53,091 bases of DNA from a virus, in the IMG/VR virus record IMGVR_UViG_3300002460_002974, positions 1 to 53,091 of that record; one strand, written 5' to 3'. The notes beneath the pieces were generated by a model that saw nothing but the letters and a program-made list of their open reading frames with translations, made no database searches and was not told the DNA's origin. Within the stretch, counting starts at the first letter, position 1. Every line of letters starts with the position of its first letter. The position numbers were made by a program, and so were the translations under genes. Shown here one piece after another: positions 1,117 through 47,168 of the stretch.

Positions 1117-2184
1117 ATGACAAACCCCACGCACTTTCCGGCAGCGGACGGGATACGCGGCTTCGCTTGCCTAATCGTTCTCGCACTACACACCGTGGTT
1201 ATATTCTTCGAGGCCACTAATCCTGCCCTCGCCGGCGCACCCAAGATCGGTGTCTGGCTGTTCTTCGTACTCAGCGCCTTTCTGTTGTCCAGCAAGCTCG
1301 CAAGCACCGGCTTTTCCTGGGCCACGCTGAGCGACTACGCCGGCGGCCGGGCACTCCGCATCGTTCCTCTTTTCCTGATTTCAGTGCTGGTCTATGCGCT
1401 CGCAGGCGTGATTACCTGGCAGCAGGCCGTCGAGACGATGACACTGACTGCCGGACCCATGCACTTTTGGACAATCCCTGTTGAGCTAAAATTCTACGTC
1501 GCTCTCCCTGCTGTCGTATTTGTTCTGGCCGGTGCGTTTCGATATGCCGGAACACTTGGCGTCGCCCTTACAACCCTGGCAGGCATCTACATACAGCAGA
1601 TGCTGTGGCCTTACTGGGCCACGCCGCAAAGCTCCATCATAACCAGCTGGTACTTCTCCAGCTTCTTGTGCGGAACTTGCATAGCGATCTGTTACAGGGC
1701 AACCGATGGCGCACGACTTGCGAAGTATCGAGACGTTCTTGGCTCGCTAATACTTGTCGCAATTATTGCTTCTATTCCCGGTGCTCGATATATGCTACTC
1801 GATACCCCGATGACGAATGACCTGTTAGACAAGCATCTGCCATTGAGCATTTTATGGTGCGCTTTCATTCTGCTATTTGTCGGGGGCAGCGGCACGATAG
1901 GGGAGCTGCTCCAGCATAAATGGATAGTGTTGGTCGGGGCCTGGAGTTACCCAATTTATCTCTTCCATTTTCTGATATTGGTGGTTACGGCTAAGTTCTT
2001 TCCGGGAAACTTACCGGCAGCAGCAGGGGCATTCATCGCCTCAATTATTGTTGGCGGCCTAGTCCACAAGTGGGTTGAGTTCCCCCTGAATAAACTGCGT
2101 ACTCGAACAACCGAGCGCCGTAAGGCAGCAATCACATCACAGGCTGGTCATCACGCGGTTGCCGGTGCCGGAAAACGCCACTGA
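1117..2184 (+). CDS. Acyltransferase 3 (O-antigen acetylase-like), lysogenic-conversion moron
   Basis: 355-residue integral membrane acyltransferase of the acyltransferase_3 family (OafA/WecH type), which transfers acetyl or similar groups onto surface sugars such as O-antigen. The N-terminus has the family's D-G-x-R-G-F-A pattern followed by the H in LALHTV, then about ten hydrophobic segments, including the R-RIVPLFL motif near residue 85. ATG at 1117 has AAGGAG at 1106-1111; a GTG six bases earlier overlaps that site and is unlikely. It runs opposite to the late operon and overlaps the end of the propeller gene by 48 bases, so its last ~15 residues (after ITSQ) are encoded by antisense propeller DNA. 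Lower GC than its neighbours suggests transfer. Substrate unknown. Confidence 0.85.
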   Translation: MTNPTHFPAADGIRGFACLIVLALHTVVIFFEATNPALAGAPKIGVWLFFVLSAFLLSSKLASTGFSWATLSDYAGGRALRIVPLFLISVLVYALAGVITWQQAVETMTLTAGPMHFWTIPVELKFYVALPAVVFVLAGAFRYAGTLGVALTTLAGIYIQQMLWPYWATPQSSIITSWYFSSFLCGTCIAICYRATDGARLAKYRDVLGSLILVAIIASIPGARYMLLDTPMTNDLLDKHLPLSILWCAFILLFVGGSGTIGELLQHKWIVLVGAWSYPIYLFHFLILVVTAKFFPGNLPAAAGAFIASIIVGGLVHKWVEFPLNKLRTRTTERRKAAITSQAGHHAVAGAGKRH

Positions 2185-3111
2185 AACAAGCTTTGTAAGC
2201 TCTGGCGACCACGCAATAGATCTCCAGTTGTTATCAGCCGCGCTGGTTCTTGATGTCCAGTTAATACCGTCAGGACTGGTCATCACGCGGTTGCCGGTTC
2301 CGGTGATAGATATAGCGACCAGCAACGCGGCATCTGCGGCCCACACAACGGCTACCCAGGTATTTGCAGCTGCAGCTGTGCGCAAGCTCCAGGTTATCCC
2401 GTCGGGACTCGTCATTACCCTAAATGTCCCCGTACTAGCAACCGCGACGTACAGCATGAGCGCCGGTGACCACGCGACAGAAAGATAGTCGTTATCAACC
2501 GCAGTCGAACGTATAGTCCAATTGATCCCGTCAGGACTTGTCATTACACGATTATTTACGCCAGACGCAGCCACGGCGGCAAAAAGATTTAGTTCAGGTG
2601 ACCACGCGACAGACTGCCAGTTATTGTCAGCCGCGCTGGTTCTTGATGTCCAGTTAATACCGTCAGGACTGGTCATCACGCGGTTGCCGGTTCCGGTGCC
2701 AGCTACAGCAACAAACAGGGTCAGCTCTGGCGACCACGTTACATTAAACCAGTTGTTATCAGCTGCGCTGGTTCTTGATGTCCAGTTAATACCGTCTGGA
2801 CTCGTCATCACGCGGTTGCCGGTGCCGGTGCTTGACACCGCAACAAAAAGCGTAATAGAGGGAGCCCACGCGACAGACCGCCACTCGTTATCAGCTGCGC
2901 TGGTTCTTGATGTCCAGTTAATACCGTCAGGACTGGTCATCACGCGGTTGCCGGTGCCGGTGCTTGCGACTGCGGCAAATAACCCAAGCTCTGGCGACCA
3001 CGCGACTGCGCGCCAATCATTGTCAGTCGCACTAGTTCTGGCGGTCCAAACTATACCGACATTAGGATCAACCCCGGCAGCAAAAACATATGGATCAACT
3101 ATCATGCTCAT
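2137..3111 (-). CDS. Seven-repeat beta-propeller tail/receptor-binding protein, 3' end truncated
   Basis: 324 residues made almost only of seven tandem repeats of about 42-44 residues, each carrying W-T-x-R-T-x-A-x-D-N-x-W, VAWSPEL and NRVMTSPDGINW. The S-P-D-G-x-x-W turn is an Asp-box-like signature of sialidase-type propellers; seven repeats suggest one seven-bladed propeller. The seventh repeat stops at MTS-Leu, where the others read MTSPDGINW, because one base appears lost at the corresponding codon. The gene overlaps the DUF2793 gene by an ATGA and is the last tail gene before the lysis genes, so a role in adhesion to the cell surface is likely but inferred. Near-identical DNA repeats make recombination between blades possible. 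Confidence 0.8.
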   Translation of the reverse strand: MSMIVDPYVFAAGVDPNVGIVWTARTSATDNDWRAVAWSPELGLFAAVASTGTGNRVMTSPDGINWTSRTSAADNEWRSVAWAPSITLFVAVSSTGTGNRVMTSPDGINWTSRTSAADNNWFNVTWSPELTLFVAVAGTGTGNRVMTSPDGINWTSRTSAADNNWQSVAWSPELNLFAAVAASGVNNRVMTSPDGINWTIRSTAVDNDYLSVAWSPALMLYVAVASTGTFRVMTSPDGITWSLRTAAAANTWVAVVWAADAALLVAISITGTGNRVMTSPDGINWTSRTSAADNNWRSIAWSPELTKLVSVAFSGTGNRVMTSL

Positions 3112-6800: not shown

Positions 6801-6955
6801 GTGCTGGTCTGCACGGACAGATCGGACAGGCGCGGGCCTTCCGTCTCCGGCGGGCCGAACTTCTTGTCGAGCCAGCCGGGAATGCCCAGGCCGAGGATGT
6901 TGGTGGCCTTGAAAATCGCCGAGTCGCGGCCGAACAGCGTTGCGCTTAAGCTCAT
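3872..6955 (-). CDS. Tail tip/host specificity protein (J-like, Phage-tail_3 family)
   Basis: 1027-residue central tail-tip protein. N-terminus (LGLGIPGWLDKKFGPP, then LSVQTSTYGADIPRLYGT) and YSYSATFQLALCEGPIAGI are typical of the Phage-tail_3/GTA ORFg15 group. Residues about 600-740 contain the usual tail-hub sequence with GDVV and LTEANETQDGRL. Start at 6955 is chosen because ATG overlaps the TGA of the NlpC/P60 gene; an in-frame start at 6964 also exists. Residues about 210-500 are encoded by visibly more A+T-rich DNA and look unlike the flanks (Kelch/propeller-like stretches such as DDGLIYIYGGQL), suggesting an inserted or exchanged host-range domain. Confidence 0.88.
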   Translation of the reverse strand: MSLSATLFGRDSAIFKATNILGLGIPGWLDKKFGPPETEGPRLSDLSVQTSTYGADIPRLYGTISVMGNVIQLENNKLKETVRKKKSGGKGGGGASEPTKTYSYSATFQLALCEGPIAGIRRMWCGDKLIYNAGSDDIETIISSNQAAQGWKLYLGTDDQMPDPRYEAEYGVGNVSAHRGLAYIAFYDFKLADYSNTLQAAQFKVEVVKDQSTGVQLIEESLYDYIEYTSNTSFPARATYIDAQLAQFFVPLTEAPTVSAYLYEARIGTITPRGAFPALSSGTPPNYKTDVKGDFLGDKDAVFSGGGNFSGVDGHIQRRNDVFVGYSDFSTSLYYKQLGGPEYSVLLAGVRAVVLDTGGAAYAIFETEIKKYEVVSGVLTESESWPVVMDLADVSDCRAWVDDGLIYIYGGQLTSNIYTFNISTGEVLSFGSLPFSEDAYHSAGFHVESGLVIETLQTISPKKLKVRKFNLQHPSVQLKPLGEIIQEECAFSGLLFSEDIDVTLVDSMVRGYRVSGGSIRSALEPLQTAYPLDVRAHGYKIQFLPRGQASVATIPWEDLGATAGDTPDDIFQQSREMDTQLPAKTVVKYLDAVREYAIGEQFSERLNTEAVNKVERDLALVLTADEAAGIAEMLNFMPWLERTPASFTLPPPYRYLEAGDVVTVVSQAATYEIRLTEANETQDGRLECQALPNRAALYTPAASGSEGVPPAGTIGLAGESLFVPLDIPVIDETLQNAPGFVGVMTGYSAGWPGALAVRSADGGQTWIDLQAYSGMPSIGYAVDALPVSACTLIDQRTLTVGMISGAPESITRDQMLAGANYAAYGVDGRWEIVRFQNADLQANGSYLLSGFVRGEKGTEWATGLHAANDYFVLLDDPDNAFIGMAVASIAVPATYRGVTSGASVDDATDVPFTYQGVNLECLSPVYAKGVRDGSSNFTGTFTRRSRLSSSWWATGIAAPVGESSEGYEIDVMNGSVVARTITASTPTFAYSAADQSTDFGSPQASITFRIYQLSATVGRGYPREVTL

Positions 6956-7377
6956 GCCGGGCACTCCACTCGGTAGGCGCGCACAACCCTGGGCTGCCAG
7001 AGGTCGTCAAGGCGGTGGTGGGCGACTTTGCCGTGCTGTTCGCTGCCGTGGATGATGTAGACGTGACCACGCACCAGGCCGGCATGGATGGCGATGTGCT
7101 GGGGGGCCTTCTTCATGCGCATCAGCAGCACGTCGCCGCCCTCGGCCTCGCTGATCGGGATCTGGCGCAGGCTTGGCTGACCATCCAGGCTCTTCTCGAG
7201 CATCCCGTCGAAGGGGGTGCGGGCGTAGCCGTTCTGGTCGGTGTAGGGCAGGCCCAGGGTGTCCAGGCAATGCGCCAGCACGCCGGCGCAGTCCAGGGCC
7301 AGGCCAGGAACGCGCCCCTGGTGCCGGAATGGCGTGTCGAGCACTCCCATGGCGGCATCGATCATGGCTTGATTCAT
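6952..7377 (-). CDS. NlpC/P60-family tail assembly peptidase
   Basis: 141-residue cysteine peptidase of the NlpC/P60 fold, found near the tip of siphovirus tails (lambda K position), cleaving peptidoglycan peptides during entry or maturing tip proteins. The catalytic Cys is C30 in LALDCAGVL and the catalytic His H94 in QHIAIHAG; a further His follows near HGSEQH. It sits between a DUF2163 gene and the tail-tip gene with ATGA overlaps at both ends, the same gene order as in gene transfer agents and many Pseudomonas phages. Confidence 0.9.
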   Translation of the reverse strand: MNQAMIDAAMGVLDTPFRHQGRVPGLALDCAGVLAHCLDTLGLPYTDQNGYARTPFDGMLEKSLDGQPSLRQIPISEAEGGDVLLMRMKKAPQHIAIHAGLVRGHVYIIHGSEQHGKVAHHRLDDLWQPRVVRAYRVECPA

Positions 7378-8270
7378 GCGCCGCGCCCCACTTCGCCGTA
7401 CTGCGACGGGGCCGGGATATGAGCCTGGCCGCCGTTGTTGATGGCGTTGCCGAACTTGCCGATGCAGTCCTCAACCAGGCGCTTGCGGCAGCCGGGGATC
7501 ATCTTGTATTCGTCGCCAACCTGCGGGGCGTAGAACAGAGCCTCATGCAGCTCGATCTGGCCGCTGGCGAATATCTTGATCTGCGAGGGGCGCAGGCCCA
7601 CGTTGGCCCCGGTGGTGAACATGATCTCGCCGTAGGCAAACCAGTCGTCGACCTCGACGCGGGCTGAATCGGCGAACACGTTCTGACTGGTTACCGAGGT
7701 CAGCGCGCCGGTCACCAGGTAGTCGGCGATATCCGGGCCGTCCGGGTTTGCCCGGGGCCCAGTGCAACGGCTGCGCGAGGTGGCGATGATCCGGCCGTCG
7801 ATGGTCTGGTCGAACAGGGTCCAGGGGCAGGAGGCGGAATAGGTGCGGCCGACTGACTGGGACAGCACGTCCTTCGCGCCCATCAGCTGGACGGTGTAGG
7901 TGTCGCGGCTGTCGTCGAATTCCACCTTGCCCCAGAACATCAGCGACAGCGGCTCTTCGTCCTCGATCGGGGCAGCCCATGACGTGGCGAACACGTAGAC
8001 CCGGGCGTTGTCGTAGATGCCAGAGGCCAGGTCGTCACGGCTCACCGCGCCCAGCTGCAGAATGCCGTCCAGGTCCACGCTCGAAGCAGACATATCGGAA
8101 GTCTCCGACAGCCCGCTGAACTCGTAGCCGTTCTCGGTCAGGTAGACCTCGCCATTGCTCATGACCAGGTCGACCGGATAGCCGGCCAGGCGGATGACCG
8201 GATGATCACCGGCAGGCACAACGCGCGCGCAGTAAACCCGCGTCTGCCAATCTGCGACGTGTGGTTTCAT
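7374..8270 (-). CDS. DUF2163 (BR0599 family) tail tip protein
   Basis: 298-residue protein of the DUF2163/phage BR0599 group, equal to the GTA gp13 type tail-tip protein. Visible landmarks are the early YCARVVPAG...PVIRLAGYPVDLVM strand region, DMSASSVDLDGIL, and Cys-rich YSASCPWTLFD and SRCTGPRANPDGPD, then GCRKRLVEDCIGKFGN near the C-terminus; such conserved cysteines can bind an iron-sulfur or metal centre in this family. ATG at 8270 is chosen because the longer frame would run through a terminator hairpin. It is followed by the NlpC/P60 gene with overlap. Confidence 0.85.
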   Translation of the reverse strand: MKPHVADWQTRVYCARVVPAGDHPVIRLAGYPVDLVMSNGEVYLTENGYEFSGLSETSDMSASSVDLDGILQLGAVSRDDLASGIYDNARVYVFATSWAAPIEDEEPLSLMFWGKVEFDDSRDTYTVQLMGAKDVLSQSVGRTYSASCPWTLFDQTIDGRIIATSRSRCTGPRANPDGPDIADYLVTGALTSVTSQNVFADSARVEVDDWFAYGEIMFTTGANVGLRPSQIKIFASGQIELHEALFYAPQVGDEYKMIPGCRKRLVEDCIGKFGNAINNGGQAHIPAPSQYGEVGRGA

Positions 8271-24313: not shown

Positions 24314-24516
24314 TACTCATCCCCCGCAGCCAGCATGTTGGCCGTCTCTTGGTGGAAGTGCCCGGCCAGTGTGGCGACCAGAAAGCCTTGAAGTATCCCG
24401 GCCTGCTTGGCCTTGTTTATCGCGGCCGCCATCTCGTTGGCGAACTCCACAAGAGCGGCGTTCGCCTCTTCGCTCACCGGCCGGGCCGAGTAGATGCGGC
24501 TGATAGTGCCTGTCAC
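24313..24516 (-). CDS. Hypothetical protein
   Basis: 67 residues (MTGTISRIYSARPVSEEANAA) with an amphipathic helix (LVEFANEMAAAINKAKQAG) and GFLVATLAGHFHQE. It overlaps both neighbours by one to four bases and is probably co-translated with them. No family recognised. Confidence 0.6.
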   Translation of the reverse strand: MTGTISRIYSARPVSEEANAALVEFANEMAAAINKAKQAGILQGFLVATLAGHFHQETANMLAAGDE

Positions 24517-24773
24517 TGGACGCCGCCTTCACGTGGACCGTCTTTCAGCTCTGGCCCACGAACAAGATTGATGGTCTTCCCTTCAGCGTTCTCGATGTAA
24601 ATGGTTGGGTAGTCCATGGTGCTGAAGTGGACGCCCTCATCGCAGTCGAGGACCAGCATATAACCTGAGCATTGCTGGCTATCGTCGCGCTCAACCCGAT
24701 ATGGGCCGCAGCATGGGTGGCAATACTGATCACCGTTCTGGCTGATGCATTTGATGGTGTACATAAGGCTCAT
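24513..24773 (-). CDS. Hypothetical cysteine-rich protein
   Basis: 86 residues (MSLMYTIKCISQNGDQYCHPCC). Five cysteines are in the first half (KC, YC-HPCC, QQC), and the second half looks beta-rich. ATG at 24773 has AAGGAG seven bases upstream. It begins a run of small genes that ends at the metallopeptidase gene. Function unknown. Confidence 0.65.
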   Translation of the reverse strand: MSLMYTIKCISQNGDQYCHPCCGPYRVERDDSQQCSGYMLVLDCDEGVHFSTMDYPTIYIENAEGKTINLVRGPELKDGPREGGVQ

Positions 24774-24837
24774 TGCGTATCTCCTTTCTCTCTACTAAAG
24801 GCCTTCCCGATCGCTCAAGAGGCCCAAATTCTACAAA

Positions 24838-25011
24838 TCACGACATCATCCAACGCACAGTCAGCGCCACGGCATAGATCAGGGCCAGCAGCAACAGGAA
24901 GCAGGCCAGCAGGAAGCGGCACCAGGCGACCAGCTCATCAGTGGCGCGGTGGGATAGCGCCCAGAAACCCACCGCCAGCGCTATGAGAACTGCGGGGATT
25001 GTCCAGGCCAT
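24838..25011 (-). CDS. Small two-segment membrane protein
   Basis: 57 residues (MAWTIPAVLIALAVGFWAL) with two hydrophobic segments separated by a short charged loop (SHRATDELVAWCR), ending VRWMMS. It lies among the holin-like genes, so an accessory lysis or antiholin role is possible, but this is inference from position and shape only. Confidence 0.6.
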   Translation of the reverse strand: MAWTIPAVLIALAVGFWALSHRATDELVAWCRFLLACFLLLLALIYAVALTVRWMMS

Positions 25012-25026
25012 CAGCTCACTCCAGGG

Positions 25027-25143
25027 CTACCAGATCCAGCCAATTGTGATATGAGAGACGACCCACAGGACGGCTTCGATAGCCACCCATCCGGCGAGCG
25101 CAGAAAGGACAATCACAAGCTCAAGTACGCCTTTAGCGTTCAT
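25027..25143 (-). CDS. Very small membrane protein next to the holin gene
   Basis: 38 residues (MNAKGVLELVIVLSALAGW), one long hydrophobic segment and a Trp-rich end (HITIGWIW). The ATG overlaps the TGA of the holin-like gene, so translation is coupled to it. Possibly an antiholin or second holin, by position only. Confidence 0.55.
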   Translation of the reverse strand: MNAKGVLELVIVLSALAGWVAIEAVLWVVSHITIGWIW

Positions 25144-25529
25144 TTCCACACCACCGCTTTAAGCTCACGGATCATGTCGGGCAGGCTCATGTGCTTACTC
25201 AGCTCGGCATAGACGAACCAGCCGCGAACCATGACCCAGGCCGGGAGGCCGCAGACGAAGATGATGCCGGCCAGCGCAATCACGCCGATGTCATCGTTCG
25301 CGAAGTGCTGCAGCTCGAACCAGCGGATGACGAACGCGCCACCGGCGATGCTCGACACCACCGTGCAGATCATCGCCACAACGAACTCGCGCACGGTCTT
25401 CGGCAGGGTCATGGCCATCACCACAATGGTGACCAGGACAGCAGCACCTGCGCCCAGGACGCCCAGCTTGTACAGCGCGATCCCGCCGAATGCGGTAGAT
25501 GCTGGCTCTGTCATGTCTCTGGCTCTCAT
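25140..25529 (-). CDS. Putative holin
   Basis: 129-residue integral membrane protein with three hydrophobic segments (YKLGVLGAGAAVLVTIVVMAM; FVVAMICTVVSSIAGGAFVI; IGVIALAGIIFVCGLPAWVMV) and a charged C-terminus (LSKHMSLPDMIRELKAVVWK). Size, topology and place at the head of the late operon fit a class I-like holin that forms the membrane hole for the endolysin. ATG at 25529 has AAGG upstream; a second ATG lies five codons later, the sort of dual start seen in holin/antiholin pairs. The endolysin itself is at the other end of the operon. Confidence 0.65.
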   Translation of the reverse strand: MRARDMTEPASTAFGGIALYKLGVLGAGAAVLVTIVVMAMTLPKTVREFVVAMICTVVSSIAGGAFVIRWFELQHFANDDIGVIALAGIIFVCGLPAWVMVRGWFVYAELSKHMSLPDMIRELKAVVWK

Positions 25530-25625
25530 AGGCGTGACCTTGGCCTTCGCCGGCCGGGCTTGCGTTTGTTTGGCGGCACCGATTTGAGCATGCCTATCGA
25601 ACCGGCAGAGGCGTGGTGCCTTGCT

Positions 25626-25701
25626 TGGTGCCACTCCAAGGATTCGAACCTTGTGTCGTTCGCTTACGAGGCGACTGCATCACCATCAATGCTTGAGTGG
25701 C
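25626..25701 (-). tRNA. tRNA-Thr (CGT)
   Basis: 76 nt including encoded CCA. Perfect 7-bp acceptor stem GCCACTC/GAGTGGC, D arm GCAT/ATGC, anticodon loop CTCGTAA giving anticodon CGT, T arm CAAGG-TTCGAAT-CCTTG. Oddities are A instead of T at position 8 and a G-A pair at the top of the anticodon stem, so it is phage-like and might be weakly functional. It lies five bases after the tRNA-Asn. Confidence 0.82.
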
Positions 25702-25706
25702 GTAAT

Positions 25707-25781
25707 TGGCTGGCAAACTTGGGATCGAACCAAGGACCGCCCGGTTAACAGCCGGGTGCTCTACCGCTGAGCTACATGCCA
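25707..25781 (-). tRNA. tRNA-Asn (GTT)
   Basis: 75 nt including encoded CCA. D arm GCTC-AGCGGTA-GAGC, anticodon stem CCCGG/CCGGG with loop CTGTTAA (anticodon GTT), T arm CTTGG-TTCGATC-CCAAG. The acceptor stem TGGCATG/TTTGCCA has one T-T mismatch. It is transcribed within the late operon, just after a terminator. Confidence 0.9.
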
Positions 25782-25787
25782 AGGAAT

Positions 25788-25811
25788 AAAAAGGCCGGGT
25801 GTGACGCCGGC
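25788..25811 (-). terminator. Intrinsic terminator just before the tRNA genes
   Basis: GCCGG stem of 5 bp, 8-base loop, then CTTTTTA on the minus strand. Passage to the tRNAs and all head genes from the late promoter would need read-through. Confidence 0.65.
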
Positions 25812-25832
25812 AAGGCGCTGGGGAGCAGCGGA

Positions 25833-26042
25833 TCAGATAGTCGCGTTGTTCTGCACCAGGCAGCGCTGGTAGTGCCAATCGGCCTGATCTGGCGGCAGCA
25901 TGAAGGACAGCTGCGCGATGATCGCGGCGCACTGCTCCATCACCTGGCGGACGTGGTCGGCCTGAGCGGTGTTGAATTGGCGCAGTGGAGGATTGGCGCA
26001 GCCGCACAGAAGGATCGCCGCAAGAACCAGTGTCTTGTGCAT
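25833..26042 (-). CDS. Small lipoprotein at the start of the late operon
   Basis: 69 residues (MHKTLVLAAILLCGCANPP). A signal peptide ends in the lipobox LLCGC, so the mature protein would start at the lipidated Cys (residue 15) and be anchored in an envelope membrane. ATG at 26042 has a strong GGAGGT. The mature part has QADHVRQVMEQCAAIIAQL. It is the first gene after the late promoter. It could be a second o-spanin-like or envelope factor, but nothing more specific is visible. Confidence 0.7.
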   Translation of the reverse strand: MHKTLVLAAILLCGCANPPLRQFNTAQADHVRQVMEQCAAIIAQLSFMLPPDQADWHYQRCLVQNNATI

Positions 26043-26076
26043 GGCGACCTCCTGCCGTTTGGCTGGAGCAGAAACG

Positions 26077-26104
26077 AAAAACCCCAGCGCAACGGCCGGG
26101 GTTT
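26077..26104 (-). terminator. Leader terminator downstream of the late promoter (tR'-like)
   Basis: AAACCCC/GGGGTTT, 7 bp, with extra partial pairing inside the loop, followed by TTTTTCG on the minus strand. It lies about 45 bases after the predicted late transcription start, like lambda tR' after pR'. Confidence 0.8.
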
Positions 26105-26108
26105 CTGG

Positions 26109-26135
26109 GTGGCTTTGCCTTGGGGGCAGAGCCAC
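26109..26135 (-). other. Leader hairpin of the late operon
   Basis: GTGGCT-x-TGCC pairing with GGCA-x-AGCCAC, a 10-bp stem with one mismatch, directly between the late promoter and the leader terminator. Could be part of a Q-type antitermination site; inferred from position. Confidence 0.55.
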
Positions 26136-26147
26136 AAACTAGAATCC

Positions 26148-26176
26148 AGTATCAACTAGCCGAACGGGAATGTAAA
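26148..26176 (-). promoter_or_regulatory. Candidate late promoter (pR'-like)
   Basis: On the minus strand TTTACA, 17-base spacer, GATACT: five of six and four of six matches to the sigma-70 boxes. It lies upstream of the lipoprotein and the whole late operon and just after the end of the Q-position gene. Confidence 0.6.
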
Positions 26177-26203
26177 GCGTGTGTTTACGACATTTTTATG
26201 CCG

Positions 26204-26803
26204 TTATGCTGCATGCGCTTCATCCTTCATCTGGTTGACCACAACGGCCACAGGGCCCAGAGCCATCCTGTCTATGTCGTTGCACACGTCAAAGCATATC
26301 TGCACGAACGGCTGCCATTCACGCGCCCAGTTTTCCGACACCAGGTGCACCCCGTAAACGTCCAGCAGCGCGGCACGGAAACCCTCCGGCGACGACAGCG
26401 GGTCAGGTGCCGACGATTGGCCGCCCTGGTGCATGCGGCGGTACCGGTAAAGAACGCCCCGGGCGACATACTCAGCGCGCTCGGCCTTCTTGGCAGTCAT
26501 CCGGGCGATACGCGACATAGCCCCGGCGAATACCAGAGCCTCTGCCGACTCGCGGTGATCGTTGTTCGCCAGCGGGTTGTACATCCAGTGACCGAAGGCG
26601 CGCACATCGCTGCGCAGGGTGTCGATTGCCTGTTGGATGTAGCCTGCCAGGGCCTGGTGCGCGGCGTGGTTCGCGTTGATCCGCTTGGCGGTCTTCTGGA
26701 CCGAGCACTCGAGCTGGGCCAGTTCCAGGGAGTGCGCCATGGTCGAATCCCACGGCATGTAGAAAGCATCGTGCCACCCGCTGCGTGCGCTGTTCAGTAT
26801 CAT
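26204..26803 (-). CDS. Last gene of the early right operon, Q-position protein of unknown family
   Basis: 199 residues (MILNSARSGWHDAFYMPWDS). Mostly helical and basic in the middle (RIARMTAKKAERAEYVARGVLYRYRRMHQGGQSS), with a C-terminal half containing LLDVYGVHLVSENWAREWQPF. No family is recognised. Its ATG overlaps the TGA of the metallophosphoesterase gene. It is immediately upstream of the late promoter and leader terminators, the place of lambda Q, so it is the best candidate for the late antiterminator; that is inference from position and basic composition only. Confidence 0.7.
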   Translation of the reverse strand: MILNSARSGWHDAFYMPWDSTMAHSLELAQLECSVQKTAKRINANHAAHQALAGYIQQAIDTLRSDVRAFGHWMYNPLANNDHRESAEALVFAGAMSRIARMTAKKAERAEYVARGVLYRYRRMHQGGQSSAPDPLSSPEGFRAALLDVYGVHLVSENWAREWQPFVQICFDVCNDIDRMALGPVAVVVNQMKDEAHAA

Positions 26804-27939
26804 GCTGCATCCCCCTTGAGCATGTCCGGGCTCACCGTATGGCGGGCCACTTCGCCGAATTCGCTGTGCATGACGATGCACTTCATGTTCTGCCGCGCAC
26901 GGTAGCCGCCGAATGCTGCATAGGCATCCTTCGCGGTCAGGGTGTTGAAGCTCTCGACGGTGACGCCGGCGTATTCCTTGACGCTCTGGTGATGGACGTG
27001 GCCCAGGTACCAGTAGCGGAACTCGGTTCGGCCCCATGCCTTGGCCTGGTCTGCCGCCATGACGCCGGGCAGACGCTCGATCTTGCAGGTATGGCCGTGG
27101 TGGGTACCGATCAGCACCTTGCCGTGCTCGATGTAGTGAAATGCCGCCGGTGCCTTGTCGATCAGGACGCGGGGCTCGTTCTCGTAGGTGTGGCGCAGGG
27201 CCACGCTCATCCAGAGCGCCCCGGTGTCGTCGTGATTGCCCACCACATTGATCACACGGACGGTCTTGTGCTTGCGCAGCGCCGAGGTGATGCACTGCCT
27301 CATGACCATCATGCCTACGTCGATCATCTTGGCGTAGCGGCCATCCAGATCCATGACGTGGCCCGAGCGGCTGGTCATGCCTTCCATGTTGTCTGCGTGC
27401 AGCCAGTCGCCAAGGTTGATGATCACCGCCTGCTCTGCCGGTGGGGCCAGGTCTACCAGGGCCGCCATCGCGCCACACTGCACGCGCACGGCCTCGGTCA
27501 TGTCCCAGCTGTCGCCCTGCGTTTCCTCGCCCCAAGCCCTCATTCCAATGTGGGCATCACCGATGGGGTAGATGGCCATCAGGTGCGCCAGGGTGATCAG
27601 CGGCCCGGAAACCGATTCGACCTGCGGCAGTTCGGCGGCCATTGCCTCGGCCGCGGCGATGAACAGCTCGCGCTGGCGCTCATGATCGATGTTGGTCTTC
27701 ACCCACTGGAGCTTCTGCTTGCCGTCGTCGCCGTACAGGGTGGAAGTACCCTTGAGGTGGAAGCCATCAGGGACAACCTTGGTCATGTCGTGTTCAGGAC
27801 TCCACCCCTGGCGCGCAAACCGGGCCTTATGGGCGTACAGGTTCCGCTCATGCAGGCCGAGCAGCTTGGCGGCCTGGGCAACCGTTCGACCGGTCAGCGC
27901 TTCCTTCATCTGCTCATCCGAGTGCTTGCGGGCTGTCAT
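26800..27939 (-). CDS. Metallophosphoesterase with N-terminal helix-turn-helix
   Basis: 379 residues. Residues about 15-45 (TVAQAAKLLGLHERNLYAHKARF) look like a helix-turn-helix. The rest is a calcineurin-like two-metal phosphoesterase: GDAHIG (127-132), GDWLHADN (177-184), GNHDD (234-238), GTHHGH and GHVHHQ. Mre11-like nucleases share this layout. It sits in the replication operon between a dNTP diphosphohydrolase and the Q-position gene, overlapping both. Nuclease or phosphatase activity on DNA is likely but the substrate is unknown. Confidence 0.88.
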   Translation of the reverse strand: MTARKHSDEQMKEALTGRTVAQAAKLLGLHERNLYAHKARFARQGWSPEHDMTKVVPDGFHLKGTSTLYGDDGKQKLQWVKTNIDHERQRELFIAAAEAMAAELPQVESVSGPLITLAHLMAIYPIGDAHIGMRAWGEETQGDSWDMTEAVRVQCGAMAALVDLAPPAEQAVIINLGDWLHADNMEGMTSRSGHVMDLDGRYAKMIDVGMMVMRQCITSALRKHKTVRVINVVGNHDDTGALWMSVALRHTYENEPRVLIDKAPAAFHYIEHGKVLIGTHHGHTCKIERLPGVMAADQAKAWGRTEFRYWYLGHVHHQSVKEYAGVTVESFNTLTAKDAYAAFGGYRARQNMKCIVMHSEFGEVARHTVSPDMLKGDAA

Positions 27940-28382
27940 TGGGCTTGCTCCTGTGCGGCATCGGCGATGGTGTAATGCTTGGGTGACTTTCCGGCGTGAA
28001 TGTCCAGCAGGCGTGACATATGAGGCTCCATAAGCGCCCTCGCCTCGCGCCACCCCGCCCCATTGAAGTTCCGGTCATCCACCAGCTTCCCGGTGACCTT
28101 GGCGTCCACCAGAATCGCCAGACAGGCCAGCGCGCCGGCCAGGTTGTGCACGCCGTCTTCGGGATCTACTTCATTGCCTTCAAACCAGTCAGTCAGGTGG
28201 CGCATTGCAGCGTCCACGTAGATCGATGGCCGCACACCCGCATGCCGCCAGTTCGACCGGCCGTACTTGAGCATGCCGTTGGCCAGGCCGATGCAGCCGA
28301 ATGCCGTGGCGGACATTGGCCAGAGGTGCAGCGGAAGTTTCAGGCTGCCCAGCTGGTCCTTCGGGTTGGTTTCCTTGCTCAT
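27936..28382 (-). CDS. dATP/dGTP diphosphohydrolase-like protein (DUF5664)
   Basis: 148 residues. It begins NPKDQLGSLKLPLHLWPMSATAF, followed by GMLKYGRSNWR and DAAMRHLTDWFEGNEVDPEDGVHNLAGALACLAIL, the all-alpha MazG/DUF5664 pattern with E and D residues for Mg binding. Relatives hydrolyse dATP or dGTP to the monophosphate and shape the nucleotide pool during phage replication. Overlaps both neighbours by ATGA. Confidence 0.8.
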   Translation of the reverse strand: MSKETNPKDQLGSLKLPLHLWPMSATAFGCIGLANGMLKYGRSNWRHAGVRPSIYVDAAMRHLTDWFEGNEVDPEDGVHNLAGALACLAILVDAKVTGKLVDDRNFNGAGWREARALMEPHMSRLLDIHAGKSPKHYTIADAAQEQAQ

Positions 28383-28600
28383 GCAGGCTCATCCCCATCA
28401 AAGATCATGGCCAGCGGCCCCATGCGAGCCTCTGCGTCTACTTCGGCGAACGCATCCGAGATGAAAATCTGCATCAGGCCGAGGTCGGTGTATTTTGCCA
28501 ACACCTGGCGCAGCTCTTCCTGCATGGCTTCGTGCATGTTCAGCTGCTGGCCGAGACGGTCGACCTTGGTGCCTATTGGGGTGACTTTGCTGTCGCTCAT
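28379..28600 (-). CDS. Small hypothetical helical protein
   Basis: 73 residues (MSDSKVTPIGTKVDRLGQQL). Predicted helices LNMHEAMQEELRQVLAKYTDLGLMQIFISDAFAEV; acidic end. It overlaps the dNTP diphosphohydrolase gene by four bases. Function unknown. Confidence 0.6.
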   Translation of the reverse strand: MSDSKVTPIGTKVDRLGQQLNMHEAMQEELRQVLAKYTDLGLMQIFISDAFAEVDAEARMGPLAMIFDGDEPA

Positions 28601-35293: not shown

Positions 35294-35426
35294 TAACCCT
35301 TTCGGCTGGCACGTTTCCGGTTGCGCACATGCGCTGTACCGCCTGAGGCGTGCACCCGAGAGCACGGGCCAGGGCTGATTGCCCGCCTGCCGCTTTTGCT
35401 GCTCGCTGAATGGCGCTGTCTTCCAT
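35217..35426 (-). CDS. cro: Cro-like repressor (YdaS-like helix-turn-helix)
   Basis: 69 residues. KAAGGQSALARALGCTPQAVQRMCATGNVPAERVIKIEAASGV is the helix-turn-helix typical of YdaS/Cro proteins of Pseudomonas and enteric phages. It is the first gene of the early right operon, starting 20 bases from the first operator, and faces the CI-like gene. GGAG lies eight bases before the ATG. It should bind the same operators as CI and favour lytic growth. Confidence 0.88.
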   Translation of the reverse strand: MEDSAIQRAAKAAGGQSALARALGCTPQAVQRMCATGNVPAERVIKIEAASGVPRHELRPDLYPAESAA

Positions 35427-35445
35427 TGTCGGACTCCGCTGTTAT

Positions 35446-35522
35446 CTACAATTTAAAGTTACAGCTCAAGCGGCAATTTTACAAGTGAGAATTGCAATGC
35501 TTGCTACAACGCATGGTTGTAT
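35446..35522. promoter_or_regulatory. Right operator region (three CI/Cro sites)
   Basis: Three 19-bp sites of the form YTACAA-N7-TTGYAR: 35446-35464 (CTACAA-N7-TTACAG, weaker second half), 35479-35497 (TTACAA-N7-TTGCAA) and 35504-35522 (CTACAA-N7-TTGTAT). They fill the space between cro and cI, as OR1-3 of lambda. A minus-strand promoter TTGAGC-17-GATAAC overlaps the first site and could be pR. Confidence 0.8.
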
Positions 35523-35532
35523 GTTTTCCGCC

Positions 35533-36216
35533 ATGGAAAAGATTGGTCGCCGCATCGCCGCGGCAAGAGAAAAGAAAGGGCTTAATCAGTCTGAGCTGGG
35601 CCGCCTCCTGGGCGTCTCACCTCAGTCCGTGCAGGCGTGGGAGTCTGATAAGAACGTGCCCCGGCCACGGCGGCTGTCGGAAATTGCTGCTGCCATAGAT
35701 CTGGATTTGGGCGACCTACTCAGAACAACACATCGCACGGGCGACGACTTCGTTCAGGCGCTCGGCGAAGTGGTCGGCGCGCACAGCAACTTGCGAGCAG
35801 TTGCGCAACCGCACAGGGATGCTAAGGGGTACCCATTGATCAGTTGGGTGGCGGCAGGGTGCTGGGAAGAATCTTGCGATAACTTCAACCCCGGCGACGC
35901 AGATGAGTGGCTTACTTCAAGCGCCAATGCGGGTGATTTTGGTTATTGGCTGGAGGTAAGCGGCCCGTCGATGGAGCCTACCTTTACAAGCGGAATGCGA
36001 ATTCTGGTAAAGCCGGAGGGCTTCGACCTTACGAGCGGCAAGTACTACGTTGCCAAATTACTGGATACCGGCGAGACCACTTTCAAGCAGTACCTGCGCG
36101 ACGGTGGCCATAGCTTCCTGCGGCCACTGAATCCTGCCTTCCCCGTTATTCCAGTAACTGACAACGTGGCGATCATCGGCTACGTCATTGACGCCAAGCT
36201 CCCGCCAATCTTCTAG
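35533..36216 (+). CDS. cI: CI-like repressor (LexA/S24 type)
   Basis: 227 residues. N-terminal helix-turn-helix (IGRRIAAAREKKGLNQSELGRLLGVSPQSVQAWESDK, residues 4-40). The C-terminal S24 domain has the cleavage site Ala108-Gly109 in SWVAAGCW, catalytic Ser146 in VSGPSMEPT and Lys185 in ETTFKQYL. RecA-stimulated self-cleavage would therefore induce the prophage. Start at 35533 is chosen at MEKIGRR; an ATG at 35521 lies within the third operator and would add four residues. Downstream genes on the same strand follow closely, so they are likely expressed in the lysogen. Confidence 0.93.
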   Translation: MEKIGRRIAAAREKKGLNQSELGRLLGVSPQSVQAWESDKNVPRPRRLSEIAAAIDLDLGDLLRTTHRTGDDFVQALGEVVGAHSNLRAVAQPHRDAKGYPLISWVAAGCWEESCDNFNPGDADEWLTSSANAGDFGYWLEVSGPSMEPTFTSGMRILVKPEGFDLTSGKYYVAKLLDTGETTFKQYLRDGGHSFLRPLNPAFPVIPVTDNVAIIGYVIDAKLPPIF

Positions 36217-45274: not shown

Positions 45275-45468
45275 CCTGCCACCCCAAGCGCAGCCGCTGC
45301 CAATCCTGCGCCAAGCGCCTGGACAACTGCAGCCACCTTCCCTTCCACGCCATGCCGGTGCACCGGCAGGACGGTGTGGACGTGGTGGTCATCTGCACCG
45401 AGTTCGCCACGGCAAACGGTGAGGTGGGCAAGCCGTTCATCAATCCCAGAAGAGGCCGCAGGCTATGA
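45271..45468 (+). CDS. Small Cys/His-rich protein between the methyltransferases
   Basis: 65 residues (MTCHPKRSRCQSCAKRLDNC). C-x-6-C-x-x-C-x-6-C near the start with His residues following suggests a zinc site; the end is basic (NPRRGRRL). Overlaps both methyltransferase genes by four bases. Function unknown. Confidence 0.65.
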   Translation: MTCHPKRSRCQSCAKRLDNCSHLPFHAMPVHRQDGVDVVVICTEFATANGEVGKPFINPRRGRRL

Positions 45469-47168
45469 ATGCGATCACCCAGACCATTGCCGGCGAAGTG
45501 GCCGATGAAGCCCAGTTCTTCGCCCCGATGTCCGCCGACCTGGTGGACAGCCTGATCGGCCAGTACGGCGCGACCAGGAAGCGGATAGAGGCCCTGGCCG
45601 CGGCTGTGCGGCTGGACGATATCGGCAGCGTTCTGCACTACTTCGTCGAGGGCAACGTGCAGGACCAGCGCTTTAGCATGCCGGCAACGGTAGACGCCCT
45701 GTTCCGCGCTGAGGGTGCCATTGCCAAGCTGAATGCCGACTTCTGGAACCGGGCCCTGCAGCTGACTGACGTGTTCGACTACATGCCTCAGGCGCGGCGC
45801 GAGCAGTGGCATGACCAGATCCGCAACCCGGAGGGCCGCAAAGAAAACCGGCACACCGGCGAGAAGGACATGCCGCCGCTGCCCGCCTTCGAGGAAGACA
45901 CTGTTCGCTCCACCCTGAACGGCCTGCTGAACAGCCGGGCGCAGTTCCTGGCCGAGCGGGTAGACGGCATCTTCCGCTCGCTCAGCCGGCAGCACGTCAC
46001 CAACACCCCGCAAGGCTTCAACAAGCGAATGATCATCCAGGGCGTGTTCAGCTATGGCACTGCCGGGCAGATCAACGACCTGCGCTGCGTGATTGCCAAG
46101 TTCATGGGGCGCGATGAGCCGAAGCACTGCGGCACGGACCCAGTGATCAAGGCAGCCCGGCGGCGCAACGGCGAGTGGCAGAATGTCGACGGCGGCGCGC
46201 TGCGCATCCGTGTGTATGGCGGCGTTGGCACCGCACACCTGGAAGTGCATCCGGACATGGCCTGGCGGCTCAATGCCATCCTGGCCAGCCTTTACCCTCT
46301 ATCCATCCCTGCCGAGTTCCGCGAGAAGCCGAAGCGCGCCAAGAAGATCAAGGACTTCGAACTGTTCGACAAGCCGCTGCCATTCGTGGTCGTCGCCCAG
46401 CTGGCGGCCATGCGCGAGGGCTGGCGCAAGGGCAAGGACGGCTGGCGTGATATCCACATCGCCATCCCGAACACCCGCTGCTTTGACTATGGCGACTACG
46501 ACAAGGCCGCGCGCAAGCAGGCCGAGGACGTGCTGCGCGCCATTGGCGGTGTGTGGGTGGATAGCGTGGCCGGTGAGCGCCTGCAGCACTGGCAGTTCGA
46601 CTACGAGCCCACCGCGGTCCTCGACCAGGTCGTCTGCACGGGCTGCATCCCTGACCAGAAGTCGCACCAGTTCTACCCGACGCCTTCGGCGGTGGCTGAG
46701 TTCGCTGTCAGCGTGGCCGATATCGAAGGCCACCACGGCGTGCTTGAGCCAAGCGCAGGCATCGGCGGCCTGGCTGACTACCTGCCAAAGCTGCAAACCA
46801 CGTGCATCGAGATAAGCCCTCTGCATTGCCGGGTTCTGGAAGCCAAGGGTTTCAAGGCCATAGAGGCCGACTTCCTGAAGTGGGCACCAGGACAGGCGCA
46901 GGCGGATCGCATCGTGATGAACCCTCCTTACTCTGAGGGCCGCTGGCAGGCGCACCTGCAGGCCGCCTCCGACATGCTCAAACCCAACGGCCGCCTGGTC
47001 GCCATCCTCCCCGCCAGCGCCAAGGGCAAAGACGTGCTGCCGGGCTGGCAACTGGATTGGGCTCGCACCTTCGACAACGAGTTCGCAGGCACCAGCGTGT
47101 CGGTAGTGGTCCTGATCGCCCAGCGGGCAAGCGCAAACGACCAGCTCGACATATTCAGCGCCGCCTAA
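45465..47168 (+). CDS. DUF4942-containing adenine methyltransferase-like protein
   Basis: 567 residues. Residues about 150-400 fit DUF4942 (RQHVTNTPQGFNKRMIIQGVFSY; DPVIKAARRRNGEW; GGVGTAHLEVHPDMAWRLN; FVVVAQLAAMREGWRKGKDGWRD). The C-terminal domain is a Rossmann methyltransferase: motif I VLEPSAGIGGLADYL near residue 427 and motif IV DRIVMNPPYSEGRW near 485. N6-adenine methylation is probable. The long N-terminal part may recognise DNA. Ends just before a large hairpin that separates it from a minus-strand gene. Confidence 0.85.
   Translation: MNAITQTIAGEVADEAQFFAPMSADLVDSLIGQYGATRKRIEALAAAVRLDDIGSVLHYFVEGNVQDQRFSMPATVDALFRAEGAIAKLNADFWNRALQLTDVFDYMPQARREQWHDQIRNPEGRKENRHTGEKDMPPLPAFEEDTVRSTLNGLLNSRAQFLAERVDGIFRSLSRQHVTNTPQGFNKRMIIQGVFSYGTAGQINDLRCVIAKFMGRDEPKHCGTDPVIKAARRRNGEWQNVDGGALRIRVYGGVGTAHLEVHPDMAWRLNAILASLYPLSIPAEFREKPKRAKKIKDFELFDKPLPFVVVAQLAAMREGWRKGKDGWRDIHIAIPNTRCFDYGDYDKAARKQAEDVLRAIGGVWVDSVAGERLQHWQFDYEPTAVLDQVVCTGCIPDQKSHQFYPTPSAVAEFAVSVADIEGHHGVLEPSAGIGGLADYLPKLQTTCIEISPLHCRVLEAKGFKAIEADFLKWAPGQAQADRIVMNPPYSEGRWQAHLQAASDMLKPNGRLVAILPASAKGKDVLPGWQLDWARTFDNEFAGTSVSVVVLIAQRASANDQLDIFSAA

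Follow-up and report, generated by a model that had tools for sequence, protein, structure and literature searches.

Gene order and leader region of the window

The window, that is, the whole stretch of 53,091 nt analysed here, is part of a virus record of 55.8 kb and shows a lambda-like plan. Its genes are arranged in the order repressor, replication initiator, NinB, NinI-like phosphatase and NinG, followed by an ORF whose predicted length of 199 residues (plus stop) was verified. A small lipoprotein-like gene, two tRNAs and the packaging genes lie 3' of this ORF on the same strand, and an Rfam scan returned tRNAs only. The features considered are as follows:

35410-36216, repressor gene of the lambda-like plan
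26204-26803, minus strand, proposed antiterminator gene (ORF 26803-26204), a member of PHROG 3373
26171-26176, minus strand, -35 box TTTACA of the putative late promoter, aligning with TTGAC(N) of relatives
26154-26170, minus strand, 17-nt spacer TTCCCGTTCGGCTAGTT, proposed binding element with the core CGGCT at 26162-26158
26148-26153, minus strand, -10 box GATACT of the putative late promoter
26136-26141, minus strand, TAGTTT, a candidate element for sigma-dependent pausing, located 12 nt beyond the start of the -10 box
26109-26135, minus strand, first hairpin of the leader RNA, GTGGCTCTGCCCCCAAGGCAAAGCCAC
26077-26106, minus strand, intrinsic terminator hairpin with T-tract, AGAAACCCCGGCCGTTGCGCTGGGGTTTTT, tR'-like and the proposed target of antitermination
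25836-26042, minus strand, small lipoprotein-like protein (match to phrog_22235), first gene beyond the terminator
25626-25781, minus strand, tRNA-Asn and tRNA-Thr, within the proposed late transcript

The promoter TTTACA-17-GATACT named in the original prediction was found on the minus strand at 26176-26148, and the two hairpins expected after it, the second a T-tract terminator, were located on the same strand at 26135-26109 and 26106-26077. Transcription is predicted to start near 26141. Both promoter boxes are imperfect, and the interval 24500-28500 yielded one promoter match where 1.3 were expected in shuffled sequences, which is chance level. Terminator-like sites were found five times in this interval (2.2 expected), with the strongest at 26106-26077. 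A profile built exclusively from the leaders of relatives, terminator included, had its best match within the 53 kb in the window leader (E = 2.7e-9); a profile of relatives lacking the terminator columns did not pick out the window's own leader. The window promoter alone stands at chance level; the case was decided by comparison among relatives.

The protein family and its conserved leader

The 199-aa protein was assigned to PHROG 3373, a family of unknown function (E 5.4e-70 over residues 1-197). The claim that it belongs to no recognised family therefore holds for Pfam and NCBIfam, neither of which gave a match, and falls for PHROGs. Its description as basic was not borne out either, given a pI of 6.75 and 20 Lys and Arg versus 21 Asp and Glu residues. 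The profiles PF06530 (Q21) and PF03589 (Antiterm) matched nothing in the virus record or among 43 family members, and no paper naming PHROG 3373 was found. Relatives are present in 37 Pseudomonas phage records, none of which names an antiterminator, at 266 confirmed IMG/VR loci and in Pseudomonas genomes (47 of 199 sampled); a distant relative, L037, derives from Neptuniibacter. NinG or a Holliday-junction resolvase is encoded directly before the gene in five annotated phages, and holin-like (lysis), tRNA or terminase genes are found downstream of it, consistent with its predicted location in the Q place. The window gene likewise closes the delayed-early region, directly upstream of the putative late promoter. 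The record of phage phi297 annotates a rho-independent terminator just downstream of the family gene. Pseudomonas phage Marin carries Gly, Asn and Thr tRNAs at the site that corresponds to the tRNA-Asn/tRNA-Thr pair of the window (25626-25781).

Dereplication at 90% protein identity left 46 loci, 44 of which share a leader composed, in this order, of a -35 box, a spacer of 17-18 nt with a motif, a -10 box, one or more -10-like boxes and an intrinsic terminator. The counts of CGGCT and of -10-like boxes given below refer to 46 leaders (these 44 plus L002 and L005), with the -35 box and spacer of 13 leaders placed by hand; as the leaders are related by descent, all locus counts are not fully independent. 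The -35 box of relatives reads TTGAC and often overlaps the stop codon of the proposed antiterminator gene. Spacers measure 17 or 18 nt (16 nt in one leader), and many relatives combine this spacing with near-consensus TTGAC boxes. One or two -10-like boxes are located in the initially transcribed region, at offset 11 in 24/46 and at offset 17 in 20/46 leaders (expectation ~2.4 of 46, shuffle maximum ~10), with enrichment at offsets 11-12 and 17-20. Two marks of the Q class, a terminator shortly after the late promoter and, at the sequence level, a -10-like pause element in the initially transcribed region, are thus both present.

Downstream of the family gene, no shared motif was stronger than the intrinsic terminator, which was also the only one returned by a de novo motif search of the 1200 nt following the gene. 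A strict automatic rule demanding a promoter and a perfect stem missed most leaders and was rejected. For a leave-out profile search, relatives of less than 70% protein identity were used and the terminator columns were removed; for 41 of 44 loci, the top-scoring match within the locus was the leader itself (E < 1e-3 in 36), the failures being L016, L021 and the window. Among 20 newly fetched genome loci, ten matched the leader profile at E 3e-6 or better, and in nine more, inspection showed a separate promoter and terminator directly behind the gene, with different spacers (for example TTGACA-TGACGGGGTTTTGCGCG-TACTTT); in the remaining locus, no promoter-terminator leader was found within 420 nt. 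No such leader was seen in the stretch examined of L037, L036 and L126. The leader was retained across loci down to ~50-60% protein identity, even beyond inserted genes. In L002 and L003, a gene for an HNH-type endonuclease, which the window lacks, stands straight after the proposed antiterminator gene (just after 3588) and before the leader. In L021, the two are separated by toxin-antitoxin genes of the opposite strand (YoeB/YefM pair, 6930-7488).

The motif CGGCT occurs within the spacer of 35/46 leaders, 9-11 nt before the -10 box, and its exact form is absent from the other 11. Spacer motifs differ by protein subfamily: the main group has CGGCT, the L038/L021 group GAAGAGCATTTGGG and the L110 group GACGGGGTTTT, with a similar transcribed region and terminator throughout. 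Such a pattern is expected if the protein reads the spacer, as a DNA-binding protein and its site would diverge together, and the protein may bind this promoter element. A counter-example is provided by the closest relative, L002 (92% amino acid identity), in which the transcribed region is the same and the spacer has diverged to ACATGTCCGAGATATGG, without CGGCT. All three matches that the pattern TTGACN{5,9}TGTSCGGCTSRNG gave in 7 genomes fall at the gene end; in 199 genomes it gave 12, only two of them at a family gene. Its reversed control matched more often than the pattern itself in the 199 genomes. On account of the few matches at family genes and the richer control, the pattern was judged not to be specific genome-wide and was not used as a test.

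The 50-nt segment containing the first hairpin of the window folds with -18.1 kcal/mol (z = -3.0), and a tendency to form structure immediately ahead of the terminator is shown by the leaders in general (46 leaders, mean z -1.46). L002 has the hairpin of the window with one G-C to G-U change. A hairpin close to TTTGCC-NNN-GGCAAA was seen in 27 loci, with a paired change to TTCGCC/GGCGAA in three, and its sequence and position vary between subgroups. Covariation was weak, the observed pairing being reached in 191 of 2000 shuffles, and was discounted as evidence for this reason. The hairpin may aid pausing or act as a second element. That the family uses, besides the promoter spacer, a second cis element in the form of a conserved hairpin within the first ~35 nt of its leader RNA appears doubtful to us; in that event, loading or pausing would depend on RNA structure, unlike in lambda Q, Q21 and AlpA.

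Predicted fold and likeness to known antiterminators

An AlphaFold model was generated from an alignment of family members only (pLDDT 83, pTM 0.80) and searched against 350,542 solved chains. Foldseek placed lambda Q in its loading complex (7ubn, probability 1.00) and AlpA (7xyb, 0.87; 7xya, 0.84) at the head of its PDB matches, all other listed matches having a probability of 0.15 or less. The structural comparison with lambda Q and Q21 proposed earlier was carried out with VIA and gave Z scores of 10.5 for lambda Q (over 158 residues), 7.4 for AlpA and 4.8 for Q21, the last of which is near the background of ~4 to 4.7; for helical folds, middling Z scores can arise by chance. A second model, of L038 (~30% identical), gave 10.8 for lambda Q, 9.6 for lambda Q bound to its DNA element and 7.6 for AlpA, over a background of 5 to 6. 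Both models thus place lambda Q first and also find AlpA, so that the Q fold is obtained on predicted models of two distant members. The best match among predicted viral structures is named 'Antitermination protein Q' (E 1.9e-4).

The deep homology search that had been suggested detected no solved Q protein with a similar sequence. Up to E 10, the family profile retrieved no chain from the PDB, not even AlpA, and hhalign against lambda Q returned a probability of 0.1; the lambda Q relatives fetched for a profile were nearly identical and lent it no depth. A common fold and mechanism in the absence of similar sequences has been proposed for AlpA, Q21, lambda Q and Q82 (PMC9371919), and a Q-like fold lacking sequence similarity in the present family agrees with that proposal.

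AlpA of Pseudomonas aeruginosa (PMC7969949, PMC9371919) belongs to the same host genus and has its binding element between the -35 and -10 boxes, where the element of the family is proposed to lie. It also has a -10-like box at -1 to +5, where CATnnT stands in the family, and the alpB promoter that it controls is followed by an intrinsic terminator just downstream, as in the family leaders. The predicted fold of the family is similar to AlpA (Z 7.2-7.4). No sequence similarity between the two was found, however, the AlpA spacer motif is GGGACG rather than CGGCT or the other family motifs, and AlpA is a chromosomal regulator of cell lysis, whereas the family member is encoded by a phage and occupies the Q place. 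Lambda Q, the best fold match, shares with the family the position at the end of the nin region, and lambda pR'-tR' shows the same arrangement of promoter, pause box and terminator; by contrast, the 199-aa protein offers no candidate for the lambda Q zinc finger (three cysteines, no CxxC pair), and the family leader has a strong hairpin in the initially transcribed region. The Q protein of phage 21 (PF06530), listed as a structural match, is of the molecular-nozzle class, to which the family would belong as well; the 199-aa protein is longer and has no Pfam match. For Pseudomonas phage YA3, an antitermination Q protein has been described that HHpred linked to that of SfI (PMC7326022). It is likewise encoded in the Q place, with a promoter and then a terminator, but has 139 aa and belongs to a separate, already recognised family.

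Proposed mode of action and alternatives

Three largely independent lines, namely gene position, the anatomy of the cis elements and the predicted fold, agree in supporting the notion of an undescribed antiterminator family. From these comparisons of sequences and models, we consider it likely, with a probability of about 0.88, that gene 26803-26204 encodes a processive antiterminator of the Q type whose sequence family is apart from those of Qlambda, Q82, Q21 and AlpA. The novelty lies in the sequence family; the kind of protein is already known. On the model of lambda Q and AlpA (PMC7969949, PMC9371919), sigma-70 RNA polymerase would start at the promoter at 26176-26148 and normally stop at the terminator at 26106-26077. 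The -10-like box TAGTTT (26141-26136) would hold sigma region 2 and thereby pause the polymerase, onto which the protein, positioned on the promoter spacer (core CGGCT), could load. Its N-terminal part would then line the RNA exit channel and prevent terminator hairpins from forming, and the modified polymerase would read through 26106-26077 into the tRNAs and the lysis, packaging and structural genes.

Alternatively, the protein could be a classical activator of late genes that recruits polymerase to 26176-26148, with the terminator merely ending the early operon or limiting leakage. The motif inside the promoter and the imperfect -35 and -10 boxes of the window would fit this explanation, which we nevertheless regard as unlikely: the near-consensus boxes and spacing of many relatives need no activator, nearly all loci have a terminator after the promoter, -10-like boxes recur in the transcribed region and the predicted fold is that of Q proteins. 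Still less probable is an RNA-directed mechanism of the N/nut or put type, in which the protein, or the RNA alone, would act via the first leader hairpin and not via promoter DNA. The recurrence of a hairpin in the leaders (mean z -1.46), the paired exchange of TTTGCC/GGCAAA for TTCGCC/GGCGAA in three loci and its retention in the window and L002 despite diverging spacers speak for such a role. Against it stand the weak covariation, the variation of the hairpin between subgroups, the conservation of a spacer motif that is not transcribed and a fold that matches Q proteins, not N. The chance-level score of the window promoter would also be compatible with an unrelated protein of the nin region, located by accident next to an ordinary operon boundary with promoter, hairpins and terminator; this is very improbable in view of a leader conserved down to ~50-60% protein identity, even past the HNH gene or the YoeB/YefM pair, and a Q-like fold obtained twice.

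With its assignment as a Q-type antiterminator, a PHROG of unknown function that is present in about a quarter of the sampled Pseudomonas genomes would gain a testable function. In addition, a late promoter and terminator are supplied for dozens of Pseudomonas phages, making their late gene control annotatable. The AlpA structure paper expects further Q-like antiterminators to be discovered by structure (PMC9371919), an expectation that the PHROG 3373 family would answer, and its subfamilies with different spacer motifs provide ready-made pairs in which to map DNA reading by Q proteins.

Elsewhere in the window, 27936-28382 encodes a dATP/dGTP diphosphohydrolase-like protein (PF18909), for which the PHROGs label 'endolysin; inhibits RNA polymerase' probably reflects a mislabelled cluster. 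A DNA methyltransferase of 567 aa (phrog_6263) is encoded at 45465-47168 on the strand opposite to the nin region, and an ORF in the tail region (2137-3111) contains several repeats of a motif like MTSPDGINWTSRTSAADN.
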